Shown one piece after another: positions 19,967 through 45,035 of a DNA stretch of 64,000 bases. This stretch comes from Mesodorylaimus sp. YZB2_4. Its lineage: Eukaryota; Nematoda; Enoplea; Dorylaimida; Dorylaimidae. Below the pieces are notes generated by a model. It had not been told where the DNA came from, did not search any database, and saw only the letters and a list, made by a program, of their open reading frames with translations. The position numbers and the translations under genes are program-made. Numbering within the stretch: the first letter of the stretch is position 1; the number at the start of each line of letters is the position of its first letter. The stretch lies in the NCBI GenBank assembly GCA_030248295.1, contig JASANH010000715.1:124001-188000 (forward strand), given 5' to 3'.

Positions 19967-20410
19967 CTATTTGCCATATCGCTTCTGTGGCATTTGAAAT
20001 TCTTTCCAATCACAGACGTTTGTCAGCAACGGCTTCCTTATTTGTTTCTCATTGTTTGATACCACAGTCACTCTCCAACGGTATTTTGTCCTAGGGGTGT
20101 CGTCTGGACAATACGCATACGCTGTACCTTCCGGCAACCCGCCTTGCTTGGCTCCAACCTTTAAAATTGGCTGATATTCTCCAGGATTTTGCCCAGCTTT
20201 TTCTATCTCGACTTGCATTGGATTATAGTCAGAAGAGATATGATAACGAAAGACGCAAGTTTTTCCCGTGACACCCGTTTTTCCAGGCCCTAAGATCTCG
20301 ACATTATCGCCAGTGGGGTGTGTCAGATTGCAGGCTTGTCCAGTTACAGAAGTGAGAAAGAAAAGTGGCAAGCTCAAAAAGAAGGCACATAGATGTGGGG
20401 GCATAGTCAT
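19967..20410 (-). CDS. Small secreted protein, CDWKE family, member 1
   Basis: 147 residues from the ATG at 20410, single exon. Residues 1-25 form a signal peptide (LCAFFLSLPLFFLTSVTGQA). The mature part has cysteines at 27, 52, 101 and 133, the shared CNLT (27-30), NPGEYQP (75-81), KYRWRV (109-114) and a CDWKEFQ end (133-139). Alternating hydrophobic/polar strands and the RWRV signature suggest a compact beta-sandwich, with the first and last cysteine likely bonded because they are the only ones kept in all members. I do not recognise a named domain. A TATA box (TATAAAA) is at 20488-20494 and the family upstream module at 20671-20723. Member 2 at 25301 is a near-identical inverted copy. Confidence 0.85.
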   Translation of the reverse strand: MTMPPHLCAFFLSLPLFFLTSVTGQACNLTHPTGDNVEILGPGKTGVTGKTCVFRYHISSDYNPMQVEIEKAGQNPGEYQPILKVGAKQGGLPEGTAYAYCPDDTPRTKYRWRVTVVSNNEKQIRKPLLTNVCDWKEFQMPQKRYGK

Positions 20411-20487
20411 GGATTCACTGGCGTCCAATGAACGATCACGAGGATGAGACAAGCCGCAAAACTGTTGAGTTAATGAAGAGAAGTTGC

Positions 20488-20494
20488 TTTTATA
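20488..20494 (-). promoter_or_regulatory. TATA box of secreted-protein member 1
   Basis: ACTATAAAAGC on the minus strand, about 78 bases upstream of the ATG. The same word sits at the equivalent place in member 2 (25217-25223). Confidence 0.65.
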
Positions 20495-20670
20495 GTTTTC
20501 GTCCACCAGCATCCTCACTCGCGGATTTCCTAATTTGTATACTTTTCTCAAATTCCCAGCATCCATGAATTCAAAAAACCCTTGAATATCAAAGTGGTAC
20601 TTTGCATTTTCGGGTTTTTAAATTTCCTTCATGCTTTCGTGAATGCCAAAGGACTTTTTTGCGCAAACAT

Positions 20671-20723
20671 GCATATCAAGCGGCAACTCTGACAGTCATT
20701 TCTGGCCAGCATTACAGCAGCTG
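20671..20723 (-). promoter_or_regulatory. Upstream module of secreted-protein member 1
   Basis: On the minus strand reads CAGCTGCTGTAATGCTGGCC, then TGTCAGAGTTGCCGCTTG. This is a diverged version of the ATCAAAGGTGCCGCTG module that precedes each member of the family. Confidence 0.55.
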
Positions 20724-20757
20724 TCACCACAAATTATAAAAAATTCGTCACCACTTT

Positions 20758-20875
20758 TATGATCACCCCCCACCCCCCACCCCGTACAGATGATAAGAAA
20801 AAGACAATTTTTTTCCAAACAAGGAAAAATCCCCCTTCTTTTCTTTTTCCCGCACCCCCCACCCTTACCCACACC
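20758..20875. other. C/A homopolymer-rich block, doubtful sequence
   Basis: CCCCCCACCCCCCACCCC followed by A-, T- and C-runs. Composition differs sharply from both flanks. Probably a low-quality consensus stretch. Confidence 0.5.
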
Positions 20876-21530
20876 GACCAGACCCGAAATTTCGGTTTAC
20901 GAGTACCGAGAATAGATAGGATCATCAATGGAAGGGTTTTTGAGATGATTTGTATTTATCGAATAGATCCTCTACTTTTCAATCTTTTAAAGAATTGTAC
21001 AACATTACGATTTGCTTCGAACACACGCATTCATTTGTGCGAGCATACTGCAGGTCGCAGTGAATTTTTTGAGCAGTAATTCTGATTTGACATTTCTTGA
21101 AGAAAGCTGGCGTGAGTACAACTGTATATTTTCTACTATTGGGTGATCTGTTTATCTGACTCACTCGGCTCACGTCAGATTCAATCGTCCCATGTGAAAT
21201 ACCTTTACTTGTCATTTTTCTTGACCAATCACAAATGCATCATCATTGTCAAAAGATTGTTTACCATGACAAATAGTTTTTAAATGTCGTTTTTATAAAG
21301 GCATGATTGCCAACGTCACTCTTTTTTTTAAAGCAAGAACAAGCGATCCCTTGGAAAAATGTCGAGCAACAAGTCAATATTCTGTTTGTAAAAAATGCAA
21401 CATTAAATAATAGAAAAAAAAAATTTAAAAAAAAATACACCCCCTCTTTTTCTCTCTCTTTTTATATTTTTTTATTTTTTAACCCCCCCCACCACATCAT
21501 ATTCTCTCCCCCCCCACTCCATAATATATT
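20876..21530. other. Intergenic, ends in a doubtful homopolymer block
   Basis: No gene is seen in 20876-21400. From about 21410 the sequence is runs of A, T and C (for example CCCCCCCCC and CCCCCCCC), ending exactly where the channel pseudogene loses homology at 21531. The block may hide the true end of that gene. Confidence 0.5.
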
Positions 21531-23250
21531 ACGATAATTCCACTTATATCACGCCTAATTTCACTGAAACCGCTCTCCGTTACGCGAATAAAGTCAGCCA
21601 AATCTTGCTTGATCTGATCGACAACAGATCGATTCTGTTCCGAATTTTGGCCATTCGAGACATTTTCTCCGAAATTTCGAACAGAATATTGGATTGGAAA
21701 TTGGAACCAGCTCGTTAATGTATTTACAGTATGCTTGCCGCTTGTTCCAGAGCCGTCTCTCGTTTCTTTTGATGGATGTGATATATGAAAAGAAGGAGTT
21801 GGAGAAGACTGATCATACTGAATCCGATGTACAATCCCAAATCACCGCCGACTTGGAAAATCATTTGTTGCAAAGTGAACTGCTGCTTCTCTTCGAACAA
21901 AATATAATCTCTGTCCTCGCATATAAACGTGACTTGAATTGGATATTCGCTTTCATTGTTTGTTGGATGAATTTTAAACCTATAATCATTTTTTGCAGTC
22001 AAACAGGGTGCGAAATGATTGTTGTAATTATCTGGCGATTTGTCTATCCATTCTTCCTGAGCCTTATACCAACAGGACGAATAAAATTTGCTTGCGCAAA
22101 ATGGCAATGTATCTTCGGTTAGATTATGATTTTTATCCCTAATTAAAAATGATTTTTGCAATTCTGAGCTAAAGGGAATGCATGCGCATTGTTCTCTGAC
22201 CAATTTAGTGCGTAAATATTTTGAATAATCAAATTGATTTTTATAATCTCGATCGCACGCTGGAAATTTACTTGATCGATCAAAAATGCCAGAATTTACA
22301 ATGCGCATAACTAAATTGCCTGGTTCGTGATTTGTTGAAAGAGATGATTCTGACAGTGCATTACCCCTAGGTGGTCTCACTTTTGAGACAAAGAAGAACT
22401 TACGACCCTAAAAAAAATCTTCCTTAAAGGGGGGCCAAACCCACCAAAAAAAAACCCCACCCCTTAATGCTCCATTCTCTAATTGCAACGTGCATGTATA
22501 GTTTGTTCAGATTCGGGCGAGCAGCACTGAGGCCGTTGAGAATGAATTATAAAATCAGAAAAATCTTTTATGCGACTAGACAATGGTATTCTGGCACATG
22601 CGATTAATATCGTCGAGGTTCTCCCACCTGACATCATAAAGAATAGGTATCCAAAAATCAGACTTTGCCTGGGGACGAATAATAGAATTGCCAGAATCGA
22701 ATACTGGTAACCCAAGCATCTCTGACAAATGCTAAGATAAGCGCATAACATTTATGCTCATAGGATGTTCAATTATGGAATCCAAAATTTCCAAGACATC
22801 TTGCGAACTAATATTCAGAAATCTCTGCAACGACCACGAATTGATCCCATTTTCCTCAAGATCGTGAATCCAAACAGAGGCCAGCAGTGCTTGGAGTCGA
22901 AGCTTGCGAATTTTGGGATCACAGAACTGCTCAGGATCTGTTCCAAACTTATCCAATGTCCAATCATCTTGCGGCCGCCAGTCTGCGGTCATCAAATTCT
23001 GCAACTCTGTTTCACTGCATGGAAATAAGGGATTCAAGTTAAAGCCATAATCAGATCTTATGCATATTTGCACGTCTGCAAGGAAATTGTGGCCACTGGC
23101 GTTGGCGCTCATCACTTTGACGACGGTAAGTTGATTGTCATTTATGTAATCGTTGATAATAAGGACCACATCGAAGATGCCTATTGAAGTCAACATAACA
23201 AAGAGGGACATATACAAGCCAAAAATAGATCGCTTGCTGATAATGCTCAT
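21531..23250 (-). pseudogene. DEG/ENaC channel pseudogene (array copy 1)
   Basis: Start ATG at 23250, followed by the same TM1 region as the intact copies (SKRSIFGLYMSLF). Broken in several places: a TAG replaces the Trp of the SWRLS motif near 22735, a one-base shift follows near 22580, about 90 bases at 22380-22470 are replaced by homopolymer-rich sequence, and another shift occurs near 21720 after the second membrane segment. The GGDLGLYIGFS pore segment and the FCASKFYSSCW cysteine block are still readable in 22380-21724. The coiled-coil tail continues in another frame to 21531, where homology stops. Some breaks may be assembly faults, but the TAG lies away from the doubtful blocks, so a true pseudogene is likely. 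Confidence 0.85.
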
Positions 23251-23287
23251 GATGACTGATATCACCAAATACGATTAATACTCTAGT

Positions 23288-23417
23288 TCAACTAAGGTCT
23301 GCGTGGGATCGTTCTGCCTCGAAAGTCTAGCGATGTCCTTTATATACAGACAAAACAGAAGTGGTTGCAGCGATTAATTGCATAGAATTCCCTCTTATTG
23401 GATAATAAGAAGTTGAT
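23288..23417 (-). promoter_or_regulatory. Channel-family promoter module (copy 1)
   Basis: On the minus strand, in order: CAACTTCTTATTATCCAA, GGAATTC, CAATTAATCGCTGCAA (23365-23380), TATA box TGTATATAAAGG (about 23337-23348), then GAGGCAGAACGATCC (23306-23320) and GACCTTAGTTG. All parts recur upstream of the other channel genes. Confidence 0.7.
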
Positions 23418-25002
23418 AGTCGCATGAGCTATGGACATATTTACTCGATTGCTACAATCACCCAGAGGAGAAGCAACAAAGGAACCGAAACTAATTTACT
23501 TGAAATGTTGCACAACGTCGGCGACCATTTTTTGTGTGTTTTGAGTCTACAAATGGTTTTTATAGCTTTTTTGTTCTTCGAATTCATCTATCAAACAGGA
23601 TTGTCATCGAAAGGACATAAATCAATAGTCTCTAAGACTTAAAAAATATATATCTTCTACATTTTTAAAATTTTTTGTCCAGAATTCCACGAAGTTCAAA
23701 TACGAGCAGCACAATATTGTTTCTGTTCTTATCATCTCAACACAAAACGCACTCGCACTCGAGGGCGAAAGGAGACATTACACAACATAATTCACAAACC
23801 CGCAAAGTCGAATCCGCAGACCCACTGTTTCGAGGTGCCAAATTATAGTCAGTCCCTCTCCTGTGAATTTCATGGAGGTGACTTTTCTCGAAATCAAGCG
23901 GATAACCTACAGTAAGTTTCAGCAGGAATATATACAATTGTACTCAGGTCCGGTTTTTCAAGAACATTGTAAGAAAAAACAAAAACTCAGAATTACTGCG
24001 CAATAAATTCACTGCGACCTAGAGTATTCACGCACAAATGAGTGCTTGTGTTGCAAGCAAAGTCGTGATTTAATATGATTCTTTCGATAGGCCCCAGATC
24101 GGGTCGGATCGGGTCATTTTTTTAATCAATCGGGTCAAACCGATCGAAAATCAACAGTTTTGTAAGTTTCTGCTATTAGCAGTTACATAAACCTCCTCAT
24201 ATCTGATTAACTCCAGGATTTGCGGAATTCGCTTTACCACGATTTAATTCTGTGTAGCTTCTAAGAATGCCCGACAAATTGTAAGGTGACGATGGCCAAT
24301 TTTTCTTAGTAATTTCTGCATAAAAAGAATCCATGTGTGTGTAGGCACGATAGGATTGTTGGATCTGGGCAGTGTACAATTTCGTGGCTTCGGCTCATGT
24401 GCAAGGTGCGCAGCTAAATTTTTTAAACTCCCTATGTATTTCTGGTGGGATATTTGACACCCTTCCAATAGAATCTTACGAGATAAACCAGACTAGTTTT
24501 CTCTGCTGATCAAGGCAGGGTTCGAACTGCAAATGCAAAGTTTCGCAACACTGAGAATCAATTAGAAGAAATGCATTTAGGGCTTAATGAGGAGTTTATT
24601 TTAATTGACCAGTACGGCAGTTGCAGACTCGTGAAGCGTTGTTCTTGGACCAGGCGAGAGGCGAGAGTGGTCCAACCAGCGAAGGCGAAGCAAGCGTTTT
24701 AGGACGCTATTGCATCGCGGCATTAGTGCATGGCTCGAATGATGATTCAACAAAATCATGGATTATTTGAGGCATATTTCATATCTTCAAGGATAAGTGA
24801 TGACGATTTGTACATGAGCACTTGTTCCTAGGCGGAGGCTCAAAATTTAAATAGTCGCAGTTTCTTTACACTGACGGTGGAAGGGGAGAGGAATGGTGAT
24901 TTTTATCATCCGCAATCGTGATATGCACTCGATTGGGTGCAAATTCAGTCATCATTAAGAATGGTAACCACGACAATTTTTATGATAATCTGTTTTAATG
25001 AC
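23418..25002. other. Intergenic in the array, no gene seen
   Basis: Open frames at 23424-23642 and 23937-23737 have no domain. A GATCGGGTC-rich stretch lies at 24092-24160. No RNA gene is recognised. Confidence 0.35.
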
Positions 25003-25060
25003 AGCTGCCGTAATGATGGCCAGAAATAAATATCAAAGGTGCCGCTGGATATGCGCATTT
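25003..25060 (+). promoter_or_regulatory. Upstream module of secreted-protein member 2
   Basis: Reads CAGCTGCCGTAATGATGGCC then TATCAAAGGTGCCGCTGG, the best-conserved form of the family module, about 250 bases before the ATG. Confidence 0.65.
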
Positions 25061-25216
25061 GTGCAGAAAAGTTTCTTGGCTCAAAGCAAACTAAAAAATG
25101 CAAAATGCAAAATACCGTTTTGATATTTAAGGGTTTTTTTGAATTCATGAATGCTAGGTATTCGAAAATAAACGAAATCAGATAGTCCGCGAGTGAGAAT
25201 GCTGGTGGACGAAAAC

Positions 25217-25223
25217 TATAAAA
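25217..25223 (+). promoter_or_regulatory. TATA box of secreted-protein member 2
   Basis: ACTATAAAAGC, 78 bases before the ATG, same spacing as in member 1. Confidence 0.65.
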
Positions 25224-25300
25224 GCAATTTCTCTTCAGTAACTCAACAGTTTTGCGGCTTGTCTCATCCTCGTGATCGTTCATTGGACGCCAGTGAATCC

Positions 25301-25702
25301 ATGACTATGCCCCCACATCTATGTGCCTTCGTTTTGAGCTTGCCACTTTTCTTTCTCACTTCTGTAACTGGACAAGCCTGCAATCTGACACACCCCACTG
25401 GCGATAATGTCGAGATCTTAGGGCATGGAAAAACGGGTGTCACGGGAAAAACTTGCGTCTTTCGTTATCATATCTCTTCTGACTATAATCCAATGCAAGT
25501 CGAGATAGAAAAAGCTGGGCAAAATCCTGGACAATATCAGCCAATTATAAAGGTTGGAGCCAAGCAAGGCGGGTTGCCGGAAGGTAAAGCATATGCGTGT
25601 TGTCCAGACGACACCCCCGGGACGAAATACATTTGGAGAGTGACTGTGATATCGGAGAATGAAAAAAAAATTAAGGAAGCCGTTGCTGACAAACGTCTGT
25701 GA
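25301..25702 (+). CDS. Small secreted protein, CDWKE family, member 2 (C-terminal frameshift)
   Basis: Start ATG at 25301. The signal peptide and first ~120 residues are almost the same as member 1 (CNLTHPTGDN, NPGQYQP, KYIWRV). One extra T just after an A9 run at 25662-25670 shifts the frame, so the product ends ADKRL and loses the CDWKEFQ end with its cysteine. The lost end (NVCDW) is still readable in the next frame to 25741. Either a recent pseudogene or a consensus error at the homopolymer. TATA box TATAAAA at 25217-25223 and AATAAA at 25887 are intact. Confidence 0.75.
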   Translation: MTMPPHLCAFVLSLPLFFLTSVTGQACNLTHPTGDNVEILGHGKTGVTGKTCVFRYHISSDYNPMQVEIEKAGQNPGQYQPIIKVGAKQGGLPEGKAYACCPDDTPGTKYIWRVTVISENEKKIKEAVADKRL

Positions 25703-25745
25703 TTGGCAAAAATTTCGAATGCCACAGAGACGATATTGCAATTAA

Positions 25746-26640
25746 CTTGACCAAAAGTGGTGAAAATGAATAAGTGGGAAAATGATGATACGTTCCCCCA
25801 TCCGATTCAGTCGTGAATTGTGTACAGTATACTTTAAATATATATAGGACCTCTTCTACTGTACTATGTACTAAATGTTATATTGCAATAAAGTGCTGGG
25901 TCTGTGATTCCGAATGTTTCCCTCAACCTCTTGTAGTGTGAGTATGGCCTGAGGAAATTTCAGCGTAGTACACCGTGTTTGACTGCGAAAAATCATTATC
26001 GGTTTAACAGTACATAGTAGTACAGAATACCTGGAAAATGCTGGCTTTATACCCAGGTTCTTGACAGAAAAAGAATGCTTTTTATATTTTTATGTTCATT
26101 TTAGCAGCCCCTATGACCTTCGTCGGAGATAAAAATCAAAAATGCCGCTGCGCATGAATTCCTTGGATTTTCAAAGAAACGCGAAGGGGGTATATAAATT
26201 GTCGCATTACTTCAACCCCCTCCGCTGTAACGTTCGTTCAACAGTGGCCTGAATAATTTAGTTTCAGGGCTGAAGAATACAAAAACTTTATTCTGGGCTC
26301 CATAATCTCATTAAATTCTTATCTTTAAAATATTATATATATTTAAATCTTAAAATATTTTCGTGGCAGATGTAGTTATGTTGGAATATCAAAGATGCTG
26401 CAACATATAAATACGTTTGGGGAAAACGTTTTCTCGAAAATTCATGAAAGCACAAAAGAAAATGGAAATGAAAATATGGCATTTCTGGCACTTTTGGAAT
26501 TCCTTAAAAATCATGAATGGGGGAGATACGAAAAACATATGCAAATCGGGGAGTTCAGCAATACACACAGTGCACAAACCTATACTTTAAATGATAAAAC
26601 AGTCCTGTGGTTGGTTTTTTGAACGCCGGTCAAACTAAAT
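25746..26640. other. Intergenic with upstream module of member 3
   Basis: An AATCAAAAATGCCGCTGCGC word at 26134-26153 is the family module of the broken member 3. A frame at 26395-26622 is open but has no signal peptide and no domain. Confidence 0.45.
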
Positions 26641-27055
26641 ATGCCTTTACAATTTATATGCGTATTGGGGTTTGGCTTGCTTCTTTCTTCCCCGACTCCG
26701 ATAACTGGAAAAGTCTGTAACCGAACACACCCAAGTGGCGGGAAAGTACAGATTTCAATGGACAAAGTCTCGCATGGTTACTTACTCGAATTGTTCAGAG
26801 TACTATCCGGTGAAAATTGAGATGGAAAAAGGCGGCCAGAATCCTTGAGAATATCGACCATTTTTGAAGGTGGACCTTTACAATAAGGGACCAGGCCCGA
26901 AATATTGGAACAATGCAGACGACATTTCTGGGACGAAATATCTCTGGAAAGTAAATGTGATGAAGAAAAACCAACAAAAAGGAGAAGGGATGATGACAAG
27001 CGTCTGTAATTGGGAAGAATTTCAAATACCGCAAAGGGAAAAATGGGGGAAATAA
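26641..27055 (+). pseudogene. Small secreted protein, CDWKE family, member 3 (broken)
   Basis: The ATG at 26641 is followed by a signal peptide (CVLGFGLLLSS) and CNRTHPSGGKVQI. The frame shifts near 26800, and the GEYQP motif carries a TGA in place of its Gly codon at 26847-26849. After that the frame is intact, with KYLWKVNV and SVCNWEEFQIP up to TAA at 27055. Two independent lesions make a pseudogene likely. Confidence 0.8.
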
Positions 27056-27740
27056 GAGGAAAAATGATTTGGCGAAATAGTGTCTCGTATTGATCGTAAT
27101 TCTTTTCTGAGACCTGTCCACTAACACGGAACCGTTTCGTTTTCAAATCGACCATATCCATGGAGAGTGTAAAGCTGCGCAAAGTCCGGCTTGAGACACG
27201 CTTAGACAGAATCCAGTCTTACACTGCCTGAAGCAGTCTCGTCCTAACAAAAGTAAGCAGTCCTTGAAATTCGACCAGAATATGTATATTTGATACAAAG
27301 GAGACATGACAGTCTTTATTAATAGCGCATTCCCCGAATGTCTGCGTAGGCTTATTCGATGCAAATAAGGTGCCTGATCTGCTCCTCGTGCTTGATTATC
27401 TCACGATAGCGTCAAGCAGAAATACATGCAACATCCGTTGTTTCCTGAACAATCACTTATGGAATCAGCGCTGTTTAGGGTTTAATGAGTATCACCCAGC
27501 GTGGACAGCGCATAAATGAGGATAGTCGTTATGTTCTACTTAACAACCCTAAGACCGCGATGCTACTTAATATTTTCATGAAGGCAGTCTGAAGTTGGCG
27601 CGTTAATCCCAGCTTCATCTCATGACGACTTTTATTCGTTTACTGGTTCATGGTGGACTTATTGCTGTTGGTGCTGCTTGTGCTGCTCTGATTGAAGATA
27701 CTACAAATGCAAAAGTGCTGCCGAAAATATTTTTTTGCTT
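27056..27740. other. Intergenic, no gene seen
   Basis: No domain in either strand. Confidence 0.35.
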
Positions 27741-27900
27741 TTTTTAAAATGAGATCAAAGTATACCGCTGCGAGCGACGACACACCAGTAAATTCACATA
27801 TCACGGTGACAAATGCTGGTGTTTTTAATCAATCAAGTAATTTGTTATCGAGCTCTCTTTTTTTGTCTTATAACCACACAACTCATTCCATTCTCTGATT
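27741..27900 (+). pseudogene. DEG/ENaC channel relic (copy 2)
   Basis: Reads ITVTNAGVFNQSSN, matching the VRITNSGVFDRSSN block that sits mid-extracellular in the intact channels. A CC pair upstream corresponds to their RPKCC. The rest of the gene is gone. Confidence 0.55.
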
Positions 27901-28040
27901 GCGACTGCCACCCAAGCAGAATTCAACTCGGTCAATGGCCTGCTTTAATTAGCCAGAATCTTCTCACGAGCAGAAAGCTCTTCAGGACATTTTCATGTGA
28001 TAATTTTTCGTGGCAGCTGTTATTATATGGTCGTCCGAAA

Positions 28041-28052
28041 TAGGTGCCGCTG
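28041..28052 (+). promoter_or_regulatory. Orphan copy of the secreted-family upstream module
   Basis: TAGGTGCCGCTG preceded by CAGCTGTTATTATATGG, about 200 bases before the secreted-family relic. Confidence 0.45.
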
Positions 28053-28224
28053 TACCTAAATATGTACTGTATGTCAGCGTATAGTATTCATAAATTCATA
28101 CATTTTTTTGGAATTTATGGAAACTCAATAAAAAAATTCCGAATTTCTTTTTCAACTTGAAAAAATTGAATTTAATTATGTCGAAGATTTTTATCCTCGT
28201 GACGGTTTTATGAATATGTCTTTA

Positions 28225-28310
28225 TGAACGTGAGATCAAAAAATCTAAAAGACGGAGAAGGGGTGTTGACGAACATTTGCAATTGGAAGGAATTTCAAAT
28301 GCCACTTTAA
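28225..28310 (+). pseudogene. Small secreted protein relic (CDWKE family)
   Basis: Only the 3' end remains. It reads GVLTNICNWKEFQMPL followed by a stop, equal to the C-terminus of members 1 and 3. No signal peptide is left. Confidence 0.65.
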
Positions 28311-28669
28311 AGAAAAGTGGAGGAAAATAGGGGAAAAGAGGCGACTTATAATTTGCGTTCTGTTCTTCGAAAAGACGAAGGAAGGATAAAAATAAAATGC
28401 TATGAATAAATATGAATATGTCAGCGAGGCTATTCGACAGTTCCTTTTATGCCGGGGTAGATTCTGTGTTCTACATCCTCAACGAGAATTAGCCAATCCA
28501 GAAATCCAACAACGAATATTAAAAACTTTTTTCAGCAGTGAGATGACATCGTATAACTAAAAAAAAACAAAGGAGCTGGACATATAATAGACGAAAAAGG
28601 TGACAAGGCCTATACCAATGTCGATTATTTCCAAAAAAGTCTGTTGTGACAGACTCAAAATTTTTAGAC

Positions 28670-28860
28670 CAGCCAATGCACAGGGTGGATAACCAGGGCT
28701 AGGATGGCTGGTCTACTGGGCCATTGCTAAACGCAACCACGGCGATTAGGAAACGTGCTCAAGCAGATTTTCCTGCATGCACATCGGAAGCACACCTGAT
28801 CGTGGGTACACGAGCAGAGGATCACGTGAAGATCCAGCTGGTGGTCCACATTATGTAATT
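28670..28860 (+). repeat. Dispersed repeat, family C, copy 1
   Basis: Shares CCAGCCAATGCACA, CTAGGATGG, GTCTACT and GGGCATTG-like words in the same order with 36466..36600. No coding capacity. Confidence 0.6.
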
Positions 28861-29075
28861 GGAAAATTTTTGTTTTTTAATACATGATATTTTTTAATAA
28901 ATAATAAATATTTTTTTAATACGTAATATATCTTTTCTAAAACGTAATATATATTTTTCATTACATAGTATACGGTATATTCCAGACGCCCAACCACGAG
29001 CGCAATGTTCTCACATTTTTATGCTGATCAATTGCAGCAGCTGTTGTTTCAGCACTGGCTCTTTTGATAAATATT

Positions 29076-29090
29076 AATGGTGGCGCTGTG
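29076..29090 (+). promoter_or_regulatory. Upstream module of secreted-protein member 4
   Basis: TAATGGTGGCGCTGTGC, a one-base variant of the GGTGCCGCTG core, about 200 bases before the ATG. A CAGCAGCTGTTGTTTCAGC word precedes it. Confidence 0.5.
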
Positions 29091-29230
29091 CATGAATACG
29101 AACAGGTTTTTTGTAAATGATGGGGAGACTTGGAAAATCTTTTCATGGTATTCTAGGCAAAAAAGCCGGATCATCTGAGAAAGGTATGCATATCGTGATT
29201 ATTATAAATAAGCTACCAGACCGGGACACC

Positions 29231-29237
29231 TATATAG
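29231..29237 (+). promoter_or_regulatory. TATA box of secreted-protein member 4
   Basis: CACCTATATAGTGCC, 54 bases before the ATG. Confidence 0.55.
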
Positions 29238-29284
29238 TGCCTCCCGTTGAAATGGACAGTTCTTGGTGTGCCAATACACACAAA

Positions 29285-29680
29285 ATGTCTACTAAATTTA
29301 CTTTCGCCTTAAGCCTAGGGCTGATGTTTTTTTACCCAGCCGTTACAAGTGTTCCGAAGTGTGTCCTTCTCGAACCAAGGGGAGAGAATTTTACTATAAA
29401 GGACAACAAGATTGTCTATCGTTGGCTTATCCATTCTGACTACATTGCGGAGAAAATTGTGATAGAAAGGGAGGGACCTAAGCCTGGAGAATATCAACCC
29501 CACGATTCATTTTATTTGGCTATTAACAGCGAAGGAATTGCTGGAGTGTCAAAACCGGTTGTATATTATCCAACAAAATTCCGTTGGCGCCTGAATTTGA
29601 TGACGAAAGTCGGGCGAAAAGATGTGGACCCAAATCCATGTGATTGGAAAGAATACCTAGTACCGGAATGGAAACTATGA
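29285..29680 (+). CDS. Small secreted protein, CDWKE family, member 4
   Basis: 131 residues from the ATG at 29285, single exon. The signal peptide is FALSLGLMFFYPAVTS, followed by a mature protein with only two cysteines (26 and 119). Family marks: KPGEYQP (66-72), KFRWRLN (98-104), CDWKEY (119-124). Only the first and last family cysteine are kept, which supports one essential bond between the N- and C-terminal strands. TATATAG lies at 29231 and AATAAA at 29730. The upstream in-frame ATGs are disfavoured because the signal peptide must be N-terminal. It lies 830 bases before an intact channel gene on the same strand. Confidence 0.82.
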   Translation: MSTKFTFALSLGLMFFYPAVTSVPKCVLLEPRGENFTIKDNKIVYRWLIHSDYIAEKIVIEREGPKPGEYQPHDSFYLAINSEGIAGVSKPVVYYPTKFRWRLNLMTKVGRKDVDPNPCDWKEYLVPEWKL

Positions 29681-29796
29681 GAAAAACGGTGAATAGTATG
29701 TTACTTATTGAGTAGAATGCGAAAAATGAAATAAAGTGACACACTTTACCCACCCACTCGACTCATCGTCAGTCGATATCACATAAATTGTGCCCG

Positions 29797-29905
29797 AGAC
29801 ACGTGCAACGTCACGCAATGTGCATTGTCGTGTGGACTCCGAGTGGCATTTCTTCCATAATCTCAAAATGGAAAGAATATAACTCCGATGCAACTTATTT
29901 CCAGT
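29797..29905 (+). repeat. Dispersed repeat, inverted partner of 32790-32885
   Basis: Shares GTGTGGACTCCGAGTGG-, CTTCCAT-, AATGGAAA- and GATGCAACTTATTTC-type blocks with the reverse complement of 32790-32885. In the other copy a SINE-like unit abuts the end at the same point. Confidence 0.65.
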
Positions 29906-30329
29906 TAGTCAGGGGTACTGAAGCTTTTTTTAAGCCCAGTCGAATCCGATGGCGAATGTCGGATAGGTTCATACTGCAGGTCAAAGTAGAGCTCGTGCCG
30001 CTGTGCTAAATCACCCAGCTCTACCTTGACAGAATGATTAGTGGTGATGCTGGTCGTGCAATTGGTTCTTCAGGCTTTACATAAAAAATAAAAAGACGGA
30101 GGAAAAAAAAATCAGGCATTTAGAAGATGAGACGAAATGTACCTAAGAACAGAATAATTGTAAAAACTCTCTTTAGACACAGAACATAAAAAGCGGAATC
30201 GGCGCCTATGCTATGTAACATTAAGTTGATTAGTTTAGAAATCACTTTTTAACTACCCGCATCCATAAGCAGATAGGCTGGTGGGTGAGTGAGTGCGCCA
30301 ATTATATAAATATATGTTCTACTCACTTC

Positions 30330-30475
30330 CAACTTCTTATTATCCAACTCATCAAAGAAAGAAAAGAGAATTCTAACCAATATATCTCTTTGATAATTTT
30401 TTTTTCTTTTTGCTGTATATAGAAGGGGACTAGAGCTTGAGTCAGAATGACATGGAAACAGACCTAGTTTCAATA
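30330..30475 (+). promoter_or_regulatory. Channel-family promoter module (copy 3)
   Basis: CAACTTCTTATTATCCAACT, ATCAAAG, GAATTCTAACCAATATATCT (core 30378-30393), TATA word TGTATATAGAAGG (about 30414-30426), GAGTCAGAATGA (30439-30450) and GACCTAGTTTC (30461-30471). Confidence 0.7.
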
Positions 30476-32999: not shown

Positions 33000-33658
33000 T
33001 CACCACTTTTCTACTTTTTTTCCTAACTCTGTTCTCAGTATTTGGAATTCTTTCCAACCACAGGGTTTTGCGTCAGCATTTTTTCGCTCTTTCGTTACCA
33101 GGTGCATGTTGCAACGGAATTTTCTTCCATAATATACAGCTGCCTTTTGCAATCCAAAACATTCTCGATTATTTAGGCCCATAACGAAAAATTGCAACAT
33201 GTTCCTGGGTGCAAAAGAATGATATGTGCAAAATATTGAAGGCCCGGCCAGCTGGTCAGCAGTGATCAGCGTCCAAATTTCCTGGGTGGTGAGCCGAGCG
33301 TTGAGGAAAACATGCAGAGTTCTTTTTAAACTCGGTTTTTGTGTCCCGAGTTCGAGTTTCCAACGCTCTCTTTTGGGGTTCTTTTCAGGAAAAACCTAAA
33401 AAATCCAGTAGAATTGAAAAATTTCGTTTGTATTCCAAGCGCTGACCACTGCTGACCAGTTGGCCAGACGCCTCTAATATTTGCATTTTGCGCTTTTTCA
33501 CCCAAGAACATGTACAATTTTTCTTCTCCTACAGTTTGACTTAACGGCAGGCGAGCTTCCCTTTTCAGTTCAATAATGGTACACTTCTAACCGCTTGGAA
33601 GAGCACGTTGAAAAAGCATAAGCCCTAGACATAGAGCGCACGTAAATTTAGAAGACAT
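33000..33658 (-). pseudogene. Small secreted protein, CDWKE family, member 5 (split by an insertion)
   Basis: Signal peptide at 33658 (FTCALCLGLMLFQRALPSG), then an in-frame TAG just before KCTIIEL. About 340 bases of fold-back repeat then intervene. The C-terminal half resumes at about 33190 (FVMGLNN, VYYGRKFRCN) and ends CGWKEFQ, where the usual Asp is Gly. Both the nonsense codon and the insertion inactivate it. The closest relative by motif is member 4. Confidence 0.8.
33198..33513. mobile_element. Fold-back MITE inserted in secreted-protein member 5
   Basis: Outer arms begin ACATGTTCYTGGGTG. Inner arms GGCCAGCTGGTCAGCAGTG (33246-) and its counterpart (33440-33465) are near-perfect complements. 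The loop holds about 170 bases. The element sits between the two halves of a coding region. Confidence 0.78.
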
Positions 33659-34328: not shown

Positions 34329-35942
34329 TTAAATGATTCCACTTATATCGCGTCTCATCTCACCGATTACGCATTTCTGATCAGCCAAATCTTGTTTGAC
34401 CTGATCCAAAATGCCAAATTGATTCTGCTTTGAATCATTGCCGTTCGAGCCATTTCTTCCAGAATTTCGAAAAAAATATTGAATTAAAACTTGAAGCCAG
34501 CTTCTTAGTGCGCTAACATCTTGGGGTTGTTCTAGTGCAGCATCGCGTTTATTTTGATAAATGAAAAGCAGGAATTGCAGGAAGCTGATCATACTGAATC
34601 CGATGTACAGTCCCAAATCACCACCGACATGGGATATCATTTGTTGCAGAGTAAACTGTTGTTTTTCTTTAAACAGTATATAATCCATGTCCTCGCATAT
34701 GAACGTGACTTGCATTGGATATTCGCTCGTGCTGTCCATTGGACTAAATGTGGCCCAATAATTATTCCTCGCAGTCACACAGGGTGTGAAAGAATTTGCT
34801 CCTAATTTCCGCGTCAACTCTTTATCCTTTTCCATCGAGCAAGATGAATAAATTTTATTTGTGCAAAATGGCGATTCTGTCGGTTTTTTATACTTTTTAT
34901 CTGCAACTAAAAATGCATTCCGCAAATGCGAGCTAAATGGAATACATTTACATATTTCTTTAATAGTTTGCTCAGATATCTTCTGAGAAAACTCAAACTC
35001 GTTTCGATAATTTTGATCACACGATGGCAAATTACTTGACCGATCAAAAACACCAGAATTCGTAATTCGCACGAGTATATTGCCCGCCTCGCTACTTGAA
35101 ACCGGATTAAGATTCCAAGATGATTTGGGCGGGGCATTAATTAAAATCTTTGCCCAGCTTTGTGCCTCTGCAATCTCTTCTCCCTCCGACCAGCAGCATT
35201 TGGGCCTTTGTGAAACAATTTTGATGTTTAATGGTAAGGAATAAGAAGACAATGGAATCGTGCTACAAATCCTACTTATTCGGTCATACACCCAATCAGC
35301 GCTATAAATAATCGGGGCGAATATTGGTCTAGAACGCAGGAAAATATCACGAGGCGGCAAGTCTTTAAGACTAGGTGAAAGCGGGTATGGAGCAACAAGT
35401 GGAAATCCAAGCATTTTCGACATACGCCAAGACGAGCGCATAATATTTATGCTCATAGGATGTTCAATTACCGCATCCAAAATAGCGAAAAAATCTTGTG
35501 TACTAATATTAAGTGAAACCTGGGCGAACCATAATTCCCACGGTGTAGCTCCGTATTTATCCAAAGCCTCAATCCAAACAGAGGCCAGCAGTGCTTGGAG
35601 TCGAAGCTTTCGAATTTTGGGATCACCGATCTGCTCAGGATCAGTCCCAAACTTATCCAATGTCCAGTCATCTTGCGGCCGCCAGTCTGCATTTATTAAT
35701 GTCTGGAACTCGCTCTCGTTGCATGGGAATAAGGGATTTTTGAAAAGGTCTAAGCACACTTGGACATCATCAAGGAATGCAGAGCCATTGGCGTTGGCGT
35801 TCTTGACTTTGACGACGGTGAGTTCATTGTCATTTATGTAATTTTTTAAAATTAATACCACATCGTGGATGCCTATCGAGGTGAGAATAACGGAGAGAGC
35901 CATAAACAAACCAAAAATTGACCATTTGCTGATAATTCTCAT
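34329..35942 (-). CDS. DEG/ENaC-type cation channel (array copy 4), truncated tail
   Basis: 537 residues from ATG 35942 (the frame upstream opens with TTG). Same plan as the copy at 30511: TM1 SIFGLFMALSVILTSIGIHD, extracellular cysteine blocks (ICSTIPLSS, RPKCCW, ITNSGVFDRSS, CKCIPFSS, FCTNKIYSSC, TPCVTARNNY, FICED), pore GGDLGLYIGFS (440-450). The segment after TM2 is three residues shorter than in the other copies. The ORF stops at RRDISGII because one Glu codon of the family is TAA here. The following ~30 codons (EQIKLNQAL, KKSRIPR) are still in frame up to TGA at about 34236, so the loss is recent. The pore is intact, so the channel may still work without the end of its coiled coil. Confidence 0.87.
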   Translation of the reverse strand: MRIISKWSIFGLFMALSVILTSIGIHDVVLILKNYINDNELTVVKVKNANANGSAFLDDVQVCLDLFKNPLFPCNESEFQTLINADWRPQDDWTLDKFGTDPEQIGDPKIRKLRLQALLASVWIEALDKYGATPWELWFAQVSLNISTQDFFAILDAVIEHPMSINIMRSSWRMSKMLGFPLVAPYPLSPSLKDLPPRDIFLRSRPIFAPIIYSADWVYDRISRICSTIPLSSYSLPLNIKIVSQRPKCCWSEGEEIAEAQSWAKILINAPPKSSWNLNPVSSSEAGNILVRITNSGVFDRSSNLPSCDQNYRNEFEFSQKISEQTIKEICKCIPFSSHLRNAFLVADKKYKKPTESPFCTNKIYSSCSMEKDKELTRKLGANSFTPCVTARNNYWATFSPMDSTSEYPMQVTFICEDMDYILFKEKQQFTLQQMISHVGGDLGLYIGFSMISFLQFLLFIYQNKRDAALEQPQDVSALRSWLQVLIQYFFRNSGRNGSNGNDSKQNQFGILDQVKQDLADQKCVIGEMRRDISGII

Positions 35943-37690: not shown

Positions 37691-37699
37691 CATGTTCTA

Positions 37700-38539: not shown

Positions 38540-38666
38540 TAATGATCAGCAGAGTTGTGATTGTCAGGGGCTGGATGATTAAGGAATTTCCTGCTGTTTT
38601 TCCATTATCTCCATGGAATTCTCAGAATTTGGAATGTGGGAGCTTCCCTGACTTTTTGCTTTAGAA

Positions 38667-39306
38667 TTTTGCGGACGATTGCTTGCCGGGGTGGCCCCCC
38701 CACCCCGGCAAGCGGGTCGATGACGTCGTCCAATTAGTTCAACCTGCTGTAAATTTCATAGCAGATTGGGTGAGGTCAGCAGGTCTCGAATTTAATATGT
38801 CGAAAACGCAGTTAATAATCTATCGATATGATCGACGTAAACTCGCCATTGTTCCAGATCTTAGACTGTGTGGTTCAAGCATACCTCTACTAAGCCGAAT
38901 CAACTATCTTGGCATGACTTTCTCCGAGGATCTATCTTTTTCGGATCACATTTCGAATGCGTCGGAAATGGCTACATCTATGATTGGCCCCAATAATCGG
39001 CAGTTGGGCAAAGGCGTCCCCAACTCGCTTTTGGGTACTCTTTATGATTCCTGCGTTCGTGCCACGTTGGACTATGGATGTGCCACTTGGAACCCAGTAC
39101 GAAAAAATGATATTGAATTTCTGGAACGTGCTCACAAATTTGCCCTTCGGTTGTACCTAAGTGATTTCCGAATTTCCTATCGGGTGACAAAAGCCAATTG
39201 GACGCCACTACACGATCGACGAAAACGTCTCATGCATTCATCGCTTGAAAAGAGTCCTATAAATGCCATGAATTCATTTAGCATTTGTGCCCTTTTGAAT
39301 TCTTGA
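38667..39306 (+). mobile_element. Non-LTR retroelement reverse transcriptase, C-terminal half
   Basis: Starts at the catalytic FADD (38669-38680) and continues through an open frame to TGA at 39306: GLEFNMSKTQLIIYRY, PLLSRINYLGMTFSEDLSFS, DSCVRATLDYGCATWNP, FLERAHKFALRLYL. This is the thumb and connection region of a LINE reverse transcriptase and continues the half at 37261-37690. A perfect 14-bp hairpin (38681-38713) follows FADD directly. Confidence 0.85.
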
Positions 39307-39910
39307 GAAAAACGTATTCAGGACTACAGCGGCACGTTCGATGTCTATTCCTGACGAAAATCACAGCAGCAGCTACATACTCTCGAATAAATATACAAAA
39401 GAATATTTTGAAGATTCTCCCAAGAAGATCCTACTGAATAGGTGTTTTTCAGCAACAGTAATGAATATGTGTCGCCCCAGACTAAATGCAGTGTTTGAGA
39501 GCGTTTCCTAAATCGACTGTATGTTTTTTTCAGAGGCTAAATAGACCAACTATGCTAGCTACTGCTGTCTGTATGAGTTCTAACCTTTTCTCGTTTGGTA
39601 TAACATGCTTTTTTGAAAATTATAAAACAAAGCGAATCGTTCAACTGAACCCTGAGGTTTTCGGCTGAAACCTAAAAAAATGTCTCTCCATTTTCAATTT
39701 TACAGAAAAAACTGGCTATGCCTGGCGCCTAAGCAGAGAATGCAAAAAGCCCTTCCTAGGCTTAAACAGAGCAGAAAAGCGTCTATCCACGTTATAGCGT
39801 AATATTTCATGTGGTGTATCCATATTATTTGTAAATGGGTAGCTTCCTTTGTCTGCAAGTAGAGATGTGGGTGACTAATCATGTGAATAGGAGTGCCCAT
39901 TCGAGGCTAC
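39307..39910. other. 3' flank of the retroelement, no gene seen
   Basis: No coding frame with a domain. 39790-39910 resembles the distal upstream sequence of the channel gene at 35942 (TATCCATATTAT, AGCTTCCTYTGTC, TGGGTGA). Confidence 0.4.
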
Positions 39911-40063
39911 CAGTTTTTATTGTTTGATTAAGCAACCGAGAGGACTACAGCAATTAATTTCTGCAATCTTTCTCCGTTATATTATAGCCAGAAAAGGGTT
40001 AGCCTTCAACGACAGAGGGATATCGCATTCGTTCAACTAGCCTCTTTGATGTGATCTGTCGTC
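39911..40063 (+). promoter_or_regulatory. Channel-family promoter module (copy 5)
   Basis: CAGTTTTTATTGTTTGATTA, CAATTAATTTCTGCAA (39951-39966), TATA-like TTATATTATAG (39977-39987), ACGACAGAGGGATATCGC (diverged GATCC box), TTCAACTAG. It ends at the ATG. Confidence 0.65.
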
Positions 40064-41788
40064 ATGGGCATTACCAGCAGGCGGTCTATCCTCAGTTTGT
40101 ATGTGGCCTTATTCGCTATCTTCACCTCGATAGGCATCTACGATGTGGTCCTGATTATCAGCGATTACATAAGTGACAACAAGCTTACCGTTGTGAAAGT
40201 GATGAGCGTCAATGCCACTGGCTACAACTTCCTTGATGATGTAGAAATATGTCTGATATCAGAATATGGCTCTAGCGCACGACCATTATTGCCATGTGAT
40301 GAAAGAGATTTGCTGACATTAATAAATGATTGGCGGGAAAAATACGATTGGGAATTCGAAAAATTTAAATCAAGTTTTGAGCAGCCTTGCGATCCGGAAG
40401 TTCGAAAGCTCCGCCTACAAGCCCTCTTCTTTTCTGCGTGGATCAGCTTTCTTGATAAAAATAGACTTTTTGAAGGATTATTCTCGCGCTCGTTTGAAAA
40501 ACTCAACATAAGTTCTGAAAGCTTGTTGGAAATTTTAGATGTAATAATTAAACATCCTATGAGTATTAATATAATGCGGTTATCTTGGCGTCTGTCAGAG
40601 ATGTTTGGTATCCCTGTATTTGATGTTTATAACTCTCCGCTTCGTCCCTGGACTGATTTTCGAGATCCGAAAATAGACCAGAATCATATTATTCAAGATG
40701 TCAGTTTGGAAGACATTCACAAAATAAAAAGCATTTGCACAACGATACCATTGTCGTCATATATGAATACATTTTCTGGTGTCACAGTTAGTTCGCGGCG
40801 GTCTCAGTGCTGCTCGTCTGAGAAATATAAAGTAACAACTGATGCGCGCACAATGGCTAGTGAATTGATCATTTATTCACCACCGCAAGTATTTCGATAT
40901 TCTAATCGAATTACAAGCAGCAAGTCAGGCAATTTAGTTGTGCGCATTGTAAATTCTGGCATTTTCGATCGTTCGCATACTTTGTCATCTTGCAATCGAA
41001 ATTATCCAAACAGTGTTCAGTATTCCCAAGATATGTATGCGATAGTTGTTGAAGAAATATGTCGATGCACTCCATTCAGCTCAGAATTGCGAAAAGCATT
41101 TTCAAACGATGAAAATTATAAAAGACCAGAAGATCAATTGCCATTTTGCACCAGTAGGAATTATTCATCCTGCTGGGAAGAAAAAGGCGAAGAATGGGTA
41201 AAAAAATTAGAAGCCATTTCTTTCACACCATGCGTGACCTCAAAAAATGATTATAAGTTTTCATTCACTCCTACTGATAACGAGAGCGCATACTTACTTA
41301 AAGTCACGTTTGAGTGCGAGGACACGGATTTTATATTGTTCGAAGAAAAACAGCAGTTTACTTTGCAACAAATGATATCCCAAGTCGGTGGTGATTTGGG
41401 ATTGTACATCGGATTCAGTATGATCAGTCTTCTCCAATTTCTACTTTTCATATATCATATTTATCAAAATAAACGCGATGCGGCACTGGAACAAGCAGGC
41501 ATAACTGCATCGACGAGCTGGTTCCGATTTTTAGTTCAATATCTTGTTCGAAGTTTCAGAGAAAATAGCTCGAATGGCCATGATTTAAAGCAGAATCTAT
41601 CAGCTATAAATCAGGTCAAACAAGATTTGACTGACTTCATTCGCGTAACGGAGGATGGATTTAGTGAAATGAGGCGTGATATTATTGTAATCATGGAAGA
41701 GCAGATTAAATTAAAACAGGCGTCGCGGGAAACACGATTATGCAATGTAGTGAGAAAATCAAAGATACCAAGATATAAAAATAAGTGA
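40064..41788 (+). CDS. DEG/ENaC-type cation channel (array copy 5)
   Basis: 574 residues, one exon. TM1 SILSLYVALFAIFTSIGIYD (8-28), extracellular cysteines in ICTTIPLSS, RSQCCSS, IVNSGIFDRS, CRCTPFSSEL, FCTSRNYSSCW, TPCVTSKNDY and FECED. Pore/TM2 GGDLGLYIGFS at 442-452. The tail of ~125 residues carries QVKQDLTDFIRVTEDGFSEM, a coiled coil EEQIKLKQASRE and the basic end RKSKIPRYKNK. It is the fullest intact copy and lies 1.4 kb before secreted-protein member 6 on the same strand. The DEG/ENaC assignment rests on TM topology, pore motif and cysteine blocks; ligand and ion selectivity cannot be read from the sequence. Confidence 0.92.
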   Translation: MGITSRRSILSLYVALFAIFTSIGIYDVVLIISDYISDNKLTVVKVMSVNATGYNFLDDVEICLISEYGSSARPLLPCDERDLLTLINDWREKYDWEFEKFKSSFEQPCDPEVRKLRLQALFFSAWISFLDKNRLFEGLFSRSFEKLNISSESLLEILDVIIKHPMSINIMRLSWRLSEMFGIPVFDVYNSPLRPWTDFRDPKIDQNHIIQDVSLEDIHKIKSICTTIPLSSYMNTFSGVTVSSRRSQCCSSEKYKVTTDARTMASELIIYSPPQVFRYSNRITSSKSGNLVVRIVNSGIFDRSHTLSSCNRNYPNSVQYSQDMYAIVVEEICRCTPFSSELRKAFSNDENYKRPEDQLPFCTSRNYSSCWEEKGEEWVKKLEAISFTPCVTSKNDYKFSFTPTDNESAYLLKVTFECEDTDFILFEEKQQFTLQQMISQVGGDLGLYIGFSMISLLQFLLFIYHIYQNKRDAALEQAGITASTSWFRFLVQYLVRSFRENSSNGHDLKQNLSAINQVKQDLTDFIRVTEDGFSEMRRDIIVIMEEQIKLKQASRETRLCNVVRKSKIPRYKNK

Positions 41789-42831: not shown

Positions 42832-42880
42832 AGTTGCTGCCGTAATTTTCGTCGGAAAACATGAAAGGTGCCGCTGTAGT
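42832..42880 (+). promoter_or_regulatory. Upstream module of secreted-protein member 6
   Basis: TTGCTGCCGTAATTTTCG then ATGAAAGGTGCCGCTG at 42861-42876, about 330 bases before the ATG. Confidence 0.6.
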
Positions 42881-43155
42881 GTGCTCTTGAATACGTTTCG
42901 ATCTCGTTGAGTCCACAATCATTCTTTGCTCTATTTGCCAACACTGCTACGGCGGCTGTCACAAGATACTTTTGTGTGCGCAAATAATGAGACTTACATA
43001 GATGGTATACGAACGTGATAAGATTTCCTCGAGAATTCTAGAGAGCGCAAATGCTATGCATTCACGGCATTTATAGGACATTTTTGAATTGATGAATGCT
43101 GGAGATCCGACAAAAAAAATGCAAATCAGTCCGTGGAATTAATGGGTGACTTCAC

Positions 43156-43163
43156 TATATATA
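43156..43163 (+). promoter_or_regulatory. TATA box of secreted-protein member 6
   Basis: CACTATATATACTC, 47 bases before the ATG. Confidence 0.55.
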
Positions 43164-43202
43164 CTCACTTTCTCACATAATCCGTTTGCCAATTACTGGA
43201 AC

Positions 43203-43667
43203 ATGGATAAGCTGACTATGGCTTTACAATTGACATATGTCTTTAGTTTTTATATGCTTTTATTTTTTCCCCCTCCCATAAGCGGACAAGCTTGCAACCT
43301 GACTGAACCAGTCGGCCAGGTTACAGTTCTTCCCGATGCTTCCAATCAGAAGCAAGTGATTCGTTTCAATTACTCCATTTCCTCCAAGTATGTGCTAAAA
43401 GAAATTGAGATCGAGAAAGTCGGAACAAAGCCTGGAGAATATCAAACTTTCAAAAAAATTCCTTTGCAATTTTGGCCACAAACGTCATCGACTCAATGGA
43501 CGCCGGAAGGCGATTCTCCAGGGACAAATTACCGTTGGCGAGTCAATGTGTTGCAGTGGAGGCCGCATGCAGATAAATATATGCGATTGAGTCTGGGAGG
43601 AAAATACGTGAATGTGCCAAACGTCTGCGATTGGAAAGAATTCCAGATCTCCCAAAAGAAGCCATGA
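43203..43667 (+). CDS. Small secreted protein, CDWKE family, member 6
   Basis: 154 residues from the ATG at 43203, single exon. The signal peptide ends near SGQA (27-30). Only two cysteines are in the mature part, 31 and 142. Family marks are CNLTEPVG (31-38), IEIEKVGTKPGEYQ (68-81), NYRWRVNV (109-116) and CDWKEFQIS (142-150). It is longer than members 1 and 4 because of an insertion between RWRV and the terminal cysteine, in a loop position. The upstream ATG at 43146 would put 19 residues before the signal peptide and is disfavoured. It lies downstream of an intact channel gene on the same strand. Confidence 0.83.
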   Translation: MDKLTMALQLTYVFSFYMLLFFPPPISGQACNLTEPVGQVTVLPDASNQKQVIRFNYSISSKYVLKEIEIEKVGTKPGEYQTFKKIPLQFWPQTSSTQWTPEGDSPGTNYRWRVNVLQWRPHADKYMRLSLGGKYVNVPNVCDWKEFQISQKKP

Positions 43668-43821
43668 AACGAGACGAGTTTTATTCTTTGCAGCGTGCGA
43701 AATAAGGAAAGTAAAAATTACTGTGTGATCGTGTCGGCTCACAGTTAACGCCTTTAGCCTGTTCCTATTACCACATCACCAAGCGAACCAAGCGAAGAGG
43801 TTAAATGAACACATTCAAACT

Positions 43822-43893
43822 CGTGGCCTGGCGGGCTAAGCGTCTGCCTCTCACGCAGTTACGGGCGAGTGTTCGACTCGCGGCCCGGTAAAT
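43822..43893 (+). repeat. tRNA-like pseudogene or SINE head
   Basis: TGGCGGGCTAAGCGTCTGCC, TCTCACGCAG and GAGTGTTCGACTCGCGGCCC recall the A and B boxes of a tRNA gene. The acceptor stem does not close. A related word set occurs near 37140-37210. Confidence 0.45.
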
Positions 43894-44934
43894 AAAGTCT
43901 TGTATAATGTCCCCTATAAGAAGCCAAAACACTGTTAAAAGCAGGTAAAGTTTAAAAAAATTAAAACAAAACTCAAAGATTCAAAGATTTTACTTTCACA
44001 CAAATCGAAACTACCGCATTCCGCACCGAGTAGATGGAAGATCTTGACAGTGTTTCCCTGTGTAATGGGACAAGTTTAAGCTCCTGCATGCTGTGGTTAA
44101 GTATTCAGGATGTACAGTATGACCTAACGAGATAAATGCACAATATGACTAGCACAACAGAACACCCAAGTACGACATAAAAACATACCAGGTTATGGAA
44201 TATGGATTTTGAAAAGATACAAAAGGATCCTGAACGAATTCGTTTAAAAACGATTCGAAGATTCAAAAGCCCCCAATATGATCGTGAAAGTGGTTTTGGG
44301 GGCGGCATTGGGCAAGGTTGCCGCTCTGGTACAATTTCCGCTAAATATATCTTTATTAGAACCACACCCCTGGATTCTCCTCCCCCGTCATATCACAGAA
44401 GCTGAAATATCATCTATTATCTTCGCCATTTGATTTTGGAGTTAATCAAGTAGAGATCGCGTGGTTTTATCTCGAAGACATGAATTTCTACCTCCGGATT
44501 CAGGTTTTGCACATCATTCAATTTTTGTTCCTTGCATTTTGGAGTAATTCTGTCACTACAGTGATAGAACCTAGAGCAAAGCAAAAAGTCTTGTCTACTC
44601 CTCTTTTCCGTCTGCTATCAAATATATGCGCACATTGATGATTTGGAAAAGATACTTTGCAAAGCGTCTCTTGAGAACATTCAAAAGTGAACATGTATTG
44701 GAGTCCACCATTCACTTGCTGGACGTCCTTTATGCATGGCACTTGAGCATTTTTCTGGCATTACCAAGTTTTTTGCAAAAAACGGCAATTTTCGTCAATA
44801 TCAAACTCATATATTTTTCAGCCTGTGCGCTAGTCGTATTAAAAAAATTTTGGCGACAGCTTTCCTGATTTATGGCTTTAATTAGTTTTCTTTTGAAAAA
44901 GTGGCGTGATGTTGATGCTATTCTGCTGAAAAGA
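43894..44934. other. Intergenic, one possible coding remnant
   Basis: On the minus strand, 44742-44518 reads VQQVNGGLQYMFTFEC, CKVSFPNHQC and VDKTFCF, which could be the tail of a secreted cysteine-containing domain. No start, signal peptide or splice partner was found. Confidence 0.25.
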
Positions 44935-45035
44935 AATTTCGAACAGAATATTGGATATCGAATTATCTTCTCCGAAATTTCGAACAGAATATTGAATTAG
45001 AGCGGGCTTTCAAGAGCTGGCTTTGAAGTGAGGAA
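44935..45035 (-). pseudogene. DEG/ENaC channel relic (C-terminal, tandemly duplicated)
   Basis: On the minus strand, the word CAATATTCTGTTCGAAATTTC occurs twice, followed in one copy by GGAGAAGAT. It is the same as the IQYSVRNFGE tail of the channel copies. Nothing else of the gene remains. Confidence 0.6.

Follow-up and report, generated by a model that had tools for sequence, protein, structure and literature searches.

Analysis of a 64,000-nucleotide stretch of the genome of the nematode Mesodorylaimus sp. YZB2_4 (contig JASANH010000715.1, here C138; C138:124001-188000, hereafter the window) revealed an interleaved array of two gene families at window positions ~19967-45035, one encoding divergent DEG/ENaC-type channels and the other small secreted-type proteins, here designated S. 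The array is real and its host is a nematode. Local co-duplication of the two families with hitch-hiking, followed by inversions, transposon insertions and gene conversion among the channels, is the probable explanation of its structure. The channel family, which is large, dispersed, intronless and of a divergent DEG/ENaC type, is the more notable finding and deserves follow-up. The genome searched comprised 145 Mb in 1067 contigs, and its searches score only part of the first-look candidates, so that genome-wide counts are lower bounds. The same genome gave 133 matches to the profile of Col_cuticle_N, a domain that marks nematodes. An arthropod was considered as host and rejected, as Chitin_bind_4 gave no match, although it matched in no control either.

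Composition and alternation of the array

The array consists of 15 elements, namely four channel genes, six S genes and five short relics. Gene coordinates were obtained by tblastn within the window, which recovered the four channel and six S genes. Every gene of the original prediction, which had described two unrelated interleaved families, is present where it had been placed, and one S 5' flank absent from that list (39407-39228, minus strand) was added. With relics in lower case, the order is S1- CA- S2+ c+ S3+ c+ s+ S4+ C3+ S5- C4- s- C5+ S6+ c-. Channels C3 and C5 are intact, C4 has a shortened tail and CA is a pseudogene, while the frames of S1, S4 and S6 are intact and those of S2, S3 and S5 are broken. 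Intact copies of both families consist of a single frame without introns. The elements, together with the insertion found in S5, are as follows (window coordinates).

19967-20410 (-): S1, intact secreted-type protein, 147 aa
21533-23250 (-): CA, channel pseudogene, PF00858 in its C-terminal piece
25301-25736 (+): S2, a close copy of S1 in inverted orientation, whose frame is lost in a run of A towards the 3' end
25955-26020 (+): short channel relic, scoring 57 (shuffles at most 41), with 89% identity to CA over 37 bases
26641-27055 (+): S3, disrupted by a stop and by a change of frame
27791-27856 (+): short channel relic, scoring 53 (shuffles at most 41), missed by nhmmer
28249-28305 (+): S relic (3' end), nhmmer E 0.0024; an S-type 5' element remains at 28040-28052
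29285-29680 (+): S4, intact, 131 aa
30511-32256 (+): C3, intact divergent DEG/ENaC-type channel, 581 aa
33024-33658 (-): S5, broken S copy, split by an inverted-repeat element
33186-33523 (no strand): inverted-repeat element inside S5, 338 bases, resembling a miniature inverted-repeat transposable element (MITE)
34329-35942 (-): C4, channel, 537 aa, ending ~25 codons before homology to C3 ends
39228-39407 (-): S relic, 5' flank only (blastn and genome DNA search), adjoining a reverse-transcriptase-like fragment (by eye)
40064-41788 (+): C5, intact channel, 574 aa
43203-43667 (+): S6, intact, 154 aa
44933-45001 (-): short channel relic, nhmmer E 3.2e-6 for 44958-45001 and only 1.4 for 44933-44957

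The relics were judged against shuffled sequence. For nhmmer, 10 Markov-shuffled windows gave 0 matches; scoring with 15-mers was controlled by 12 shuffles of positions 23901-30400 only, the largest value being 41. Channel 15-mers starting at 25955-25976 and 27791-27812 (plus strand) scored up to 57 and 53, respectively, and a minus-strand stretch at ~28985-29038 with a score of 44, also above the shuffle maximum, was left out of the element count. No Rfam match was found at 19000-46000. In a runs test, the ten genes alone formed 7 runs (p=0.31), addition of four relics gave 12 runs (p=0.016), and addition of the fifth, at 27.8 kb, raised the count to 14 runs for all 15 elements (p=0.0023); duplicated elements are not independent, and these p values are a guide only. 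Orientation is common to 10 of the 14 neighbouring elements.

Damage within the array takes several forms. The in-frame stop and the frame change of the CA pseudogene are located away from the homopolymer-rich stretches (22411-22470 and 21391-21520) by which the gene is also cut and which look like poor assembly consensus. Six such homopolymer-run stretches occur in the window (14841-15170, 15211-15450, 20791-20860, 21391-21520, 22411-22470 and 62421-62480), the first five having the appearance of poor consensus. The MITE-like element of S5 recurs at 39 other places with 75-79% identity (40 of 841 candidates scored), and the 5' flank of S6 contains a repeat of ~110 bases, present also on contigs C378 and C420. 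Reverse-transcriptase-like stretches were recognised by eye at 36.6-39.3 kb, where the one open reading frame (ORF) tested against Pfam gave no match.

Distribution of the two families over the genome

The S proteins, of 131-154 amino acid residues, begin with a hydrophobic stretch taken by eye to be a signal peptide, and one N-terminal and one C-terminal cysteine are kept in S1, S4 and S6. The latter belongs to a motif, C-[DN]-W-K-E, in the readable array copies, with the variants C-G-W (S5 and a copy on contig C1), C-D-W-Q (S2) and C-N-W-E (S3). Four S proteins gave no match in Pfam, and searches of Pfam, NCBIfam and PDB sequences found no relative, the sole profile match, to a ribosomal protein (E 0.37), being taken as chance. 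S is an orphan family, most likely of secreted proteins with one conserved cysteine pair; a likeness to single-domain secreted beta proteins of FN3-like or ML type was noted by eye only. A 5' element, AAAGGTGCCGCTG, is common to the S genes, and its window matches with up to two mismatches all fall in S 5' flanks (7 of 7); S1 has three mismatches, and matches with up to three numbered 22 against 13.5 expected. A regulatory element common to both families was considered and rejected, the channel 5' flanks matching the S element only in short, chance-level stretches.

Genome searches with S6, S4, S1 and the contig C1 copy as queries reached E <0.01 only on C138 and at C1:85136, with two weak places on contig C195 at E 0.26, and nine S places were found in all, eight of them in the C138 array. 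The ninth (C1:85136-85552; L056 7136-7552) carries one in-frame stop, and a channel search of the 14 kb around it (C1:78001-92000) found none; frames resembling a rhodopsin-type receptor and an acetylcholine receptor, both recognised by eye, lie nearby. The S profile gave nothing above 6.6 bits in the fetched loci outside C138 and contig C1, which included 25 further channel loci, each with flanks of ~1.5 kb, and four channel regions of 10 kb; direct reading of these four regions revealed no S either. Several further candidates were discarded. The pattern C-x-W-[KE]-E-[FY] occurred at 11 places (2 in a reversed-pattern control), and the four outside C138 and contig C1 (on contigs C2, C176, C333 and C372) were rejected with a null S profile in three and 6.6 bits (E 3) in L072. 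Sequences on contigs C49 and C24 (E 0.07) were unlike S. A foreign origin was likewise rejected for S: pattern scans of viral and prokaryote contigs gave 13 and 59 stretches, respectively, of which none was confirmed.

The channel family is distributed far more widely. C3 gave at least 79 genome matches and the C134 query at least 78, and the 90 rows retained (E up to 1e-8) were merged into at least 68 places, forming 42 clusters on 35 contigs, although ordinary DEG/ENaC channels may be present among the rows of lower similarity. At least 41 of the 68 places contain open single frames of at least 500 aa without a stop. A genome search with PF00858 gave at least 114 matches (93 of 1085 candidates scored). 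S was found within 25 kb of only one of the 42 channel clusters. Near-identical channel pairs also occur elsewhere, L014/L016 (contig C111) and L019 (contig C74)/L021 (contig C195), being recent duplicates or uncollapsed haplotypes.

Duplication history and competing explanations

The youngest duplication in the array is that of S1 and S2, which by self-comparison lie in two inverted copies of an 813-base segment, 89% identical and without a channel (synonymous divergence, dS, 0.038; ratio of non-synonymous to synonymous divergence, dN/dS, 1.0 on 13 changes). Pairs among S1, S4 and S6 are much more divergent, with dS saturated or >2 and third-position identity of 0.40-0.43. Among C3, C4 and C5, whole-gene dS is 0.86-1.07 and dN/dS 0.31-0.32. 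Third-position identity of these channel pairs is 0.36-0.60 in codons 181-300 and 0.75-0.87 in codons 421-480; in windows along C3 and C5 it is 0.72 at the first transmembrane segment (TM1), 0.36-0.43 in codons 121-300 and 0.87 around the second (TM2), and CA is closest to C4 over codons 61-180. Because third-position identity is thus a mosaic, high at the TM1 and TM2 ends and low in the middle, gene conversion among the channels is indicated; this suggests that conversion kept both ends alike, the unconverted part being apparently about as old as the S pairs. Refutation of unit duplication by whole-gene dS was dropped after the windowed third positions had shown this pattern, since conversion can account for the mismatch between channel and S values. 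Phylogenetic trees grouped S4 with S5 (95/94) and, for the N-terminal part of the channels, C3 with C4 (82/84). The full-length channel tree left C3, C4 and CA without a resolved order, and the C-part tree resolved none of the four, so that the comparison of trees gives one matching quartet, itself one of three possible for four tips and therefore weak.

Gene content, relics, divergence and genome distribution are direct observations, and an order of events may be reconstructed from them. One member of the dispersed channel family would have come to adjoin a small secreted orphan gene, S, and local segmental duplication would have copied blocks with both genes, mostly head to tail. The order would later have been broken by inversions, insertion of the MITE-like element, retroelement sequence, and nonsense and frame changes, while gene conversion homogenised the TM1 and TM2 ends of the channels. 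The S1-S2 duplication, of S alone, presumably came later. The nearness of the two families would then be hitch-hiking, each retaining its own conserved 5' flank. Duplication of a block with both S and channel, as originally proposed, is supported by the alternation once relics are counted, by the co-directional neighbours, by comparable third-position divergence outside conversion and by the weakly matching quartets. It is not the whole story, as the youngest duplication carries no channel, and for simple unit duplication of an S-channel block the evidence stands between undecided and favourable.

Several observations weigh against local co-duplication with hitch-hiking. The ten genes alone alternate no more than chance, and whole-gene dS differs between channels and S, as independent duplication would also produce. 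In a midpoint-rooted tree the contig C1 copy falls among the array S copies, which leaves it unproven that S arose locally and only once. S evolves fast and candidates were scored in part, so that divergent S genes beside channels elsewhere may have escaped the search, and direct reading covered four other channel regions only. Independent duplication of the two families in a recombination-prone region, with alternation partly accidental, draws on the first two of these points, on the S-only duplication and on self-comparison, which showed no whole-unit intergenic homology between S-channel pairs. It nevertheless seems unlikely, for the relics make alternation regular, most neighbours are co-oriented and the unconverted part of the channels equals S in third-position divergence.

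A functional link had also been suspected, in which S would be a dedicated partner of this channel clade (ligand, antagonist or auxiliary subunit) and selection would keep the linkage. The regular alternation with relics, the like grouping of S4/S5 and C3/C4, the retention of intact copies in both families and the position of eight of nine S places beside the channel clade agree with it, and C. elegans degenerin channels have accessory and matrix partners according to the accessible text of PMC10148893. Such a link is not supported, however: at 41 of the 42 channel clusters the search found no S in the surrounding 25 kb, the contig C1 copy has no channel in 14 kb, S1 and S2 duplicated without a channel, no 5' element is common to both families, and the four-tip match has a one in three chance with the other channel trees unresolved. 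The result originally named as one that would refute the link, genome-wide copies that are mostly unlinked, is observed for the channels; S cannot show it, as eight of its nine places belong to this single array. A dedicated partnership is accordingly judged very unlikely. That the array is a decaying relict in which no gene matters now, some breaks being assembly errors, is quite unlikely as well. In its favour, three of the six S genes and one of the channels are broken, CA and S1 contain or adjoin half of the six homopolymer-rich stretches, and the S1-S2 differences fit neutrality; yet the 581 codons of C3 and the 574 of C5 have stayed open at dN/dS 0.32, and the stop and first frame change of CA fall outside the poor stretches. 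Co-duplication with hitch-hiking thus remains the preferred reading.

Channel identity, pore and surroundings of the array

Four of the five channel pieces (C3, C4, C5 and the C-terminal piece of CA) match PF00858 with E values of 1.8e-10 to 1.1e-8 and scores of 35-41 bits against a curated cut-off of 23.6, but only over profile positions 301-455, the last third; the N-terminal piece of CA gave no match to this profile. Among PDB sequences, weak matches to ASIC1, FaNaC1 and a centipede channel were obtained (E ~1e-3). TM2 was compared in 30 rows from loci L009-L038 (L012 and L013 are the same gene and L032 gave none), using a pattern that leaves position 11' free. The 11' residue is F in 29 rows and V in one, and the filter reads GFS in C3, C4, C5 and CA. 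Three of the eight loci from the PF00858 search fit the TM2 pattern, with GAS in L004 and L006, two ordinary channels of this genome, and GAG in L008. Other pore residues were examined in 25 ORFs of at least 400 aa chosen for F or V at 11'. Position 12' is S in 21 of them and C or N in the others; 18' is acidic in six and non-acidic in 19, being Q in C3, C4 and C5 and E in the GAS-type L004 and L006. Position 21' is acidic in none, and does not distinguish the channel family because L004 and L006 also lack an acid there. In 19 of the 25 ORFs, TM1 has its centre no later than residue 23, the first Met being residue 1, and the pre-TM1 His-Gly (HG) motif is missing in 24, C3, C4 and C5 included, when counted from the first Met (an upstream exon is possible), whereas L031 has it.

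The family resembles known DEG/ENaC channels (PF00858; ASIC, ENaC and degenerins) in its Pfam match, the G-x-S filter in TM2 and two hydrophobic ends, and differs from them in the general lack of HG, F at 11', mostly no 18' acid, a match confined to the last profile third, single-frame genes and the C-terminal tail. As far as the accessible text of PMC8536179 and PMC10148893 describes, HG forms the lower gate of ASIC beside the GAS belt, and E18' is held to govern Na/K selection. Pre-TM1 HG is highly conserved, yet is described as absent in C. elegans DEGT-1d (PMC8536179); by that description DEGT-1d also lacks the conserved 12' serine, which is retained in most members of the family studied here. 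For the intact channels, the most likely role is that of subunits of a trimeric cation channel, sensory or epithelial in type, whose pore is unusual. The pore changes (no HG, the GFS filter and a mostly non-acidic 18') would imply altered selectivity or a non-conducting role.

The expanded ENaC/ppk chemoreceptors of arthropods (mites and insects) are also large lineage-specific DEG/ENaC sets, from which the present family is set apart, by description only, by its nematode host and its pore signature; ENaCs are treated as candidate chemoreceptors in the accessible text of PMC7738191. Among the papers listed by literature searches, none reports in its title or displayed abstract an intronless, HG-less DEG/ENaC expansion in a nematode, although such a report may exist. 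A broader proposal, that the channels form a separate nematode-expanded, DEG/ENaC-derived receptor class with a non-canonical pore (lower gate without HG, a bulky filter residue and no acidic ring at 18'), for which a secreted orphan was recruited at one locus as gating ligand or auxiliary subunit, is highly improbable.

Outside the array, the window contains two intact frames for ELO fatty-acid elongases (6769-7692 and 13260-14150, minus strand), with a PAN-domain frame between them (10775-11224). An inverted repeat of ~440 bases at 76% identity surrounds a palindrome-like stretch of 340 bases at 16152-17575 and is probably a mobile element. Directly past the array lies an intact single-frame dual-specificity phosphatase (46376-46939, plus strand).

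The lasting nearness of two unrelated families in this array can be explained without joint function, which calls for caution in arguments from guilt by association. If the channels conduct, at least 41 open genes in one animal would test the dispensability of the HG gate, the filter residue and the acidic ring.

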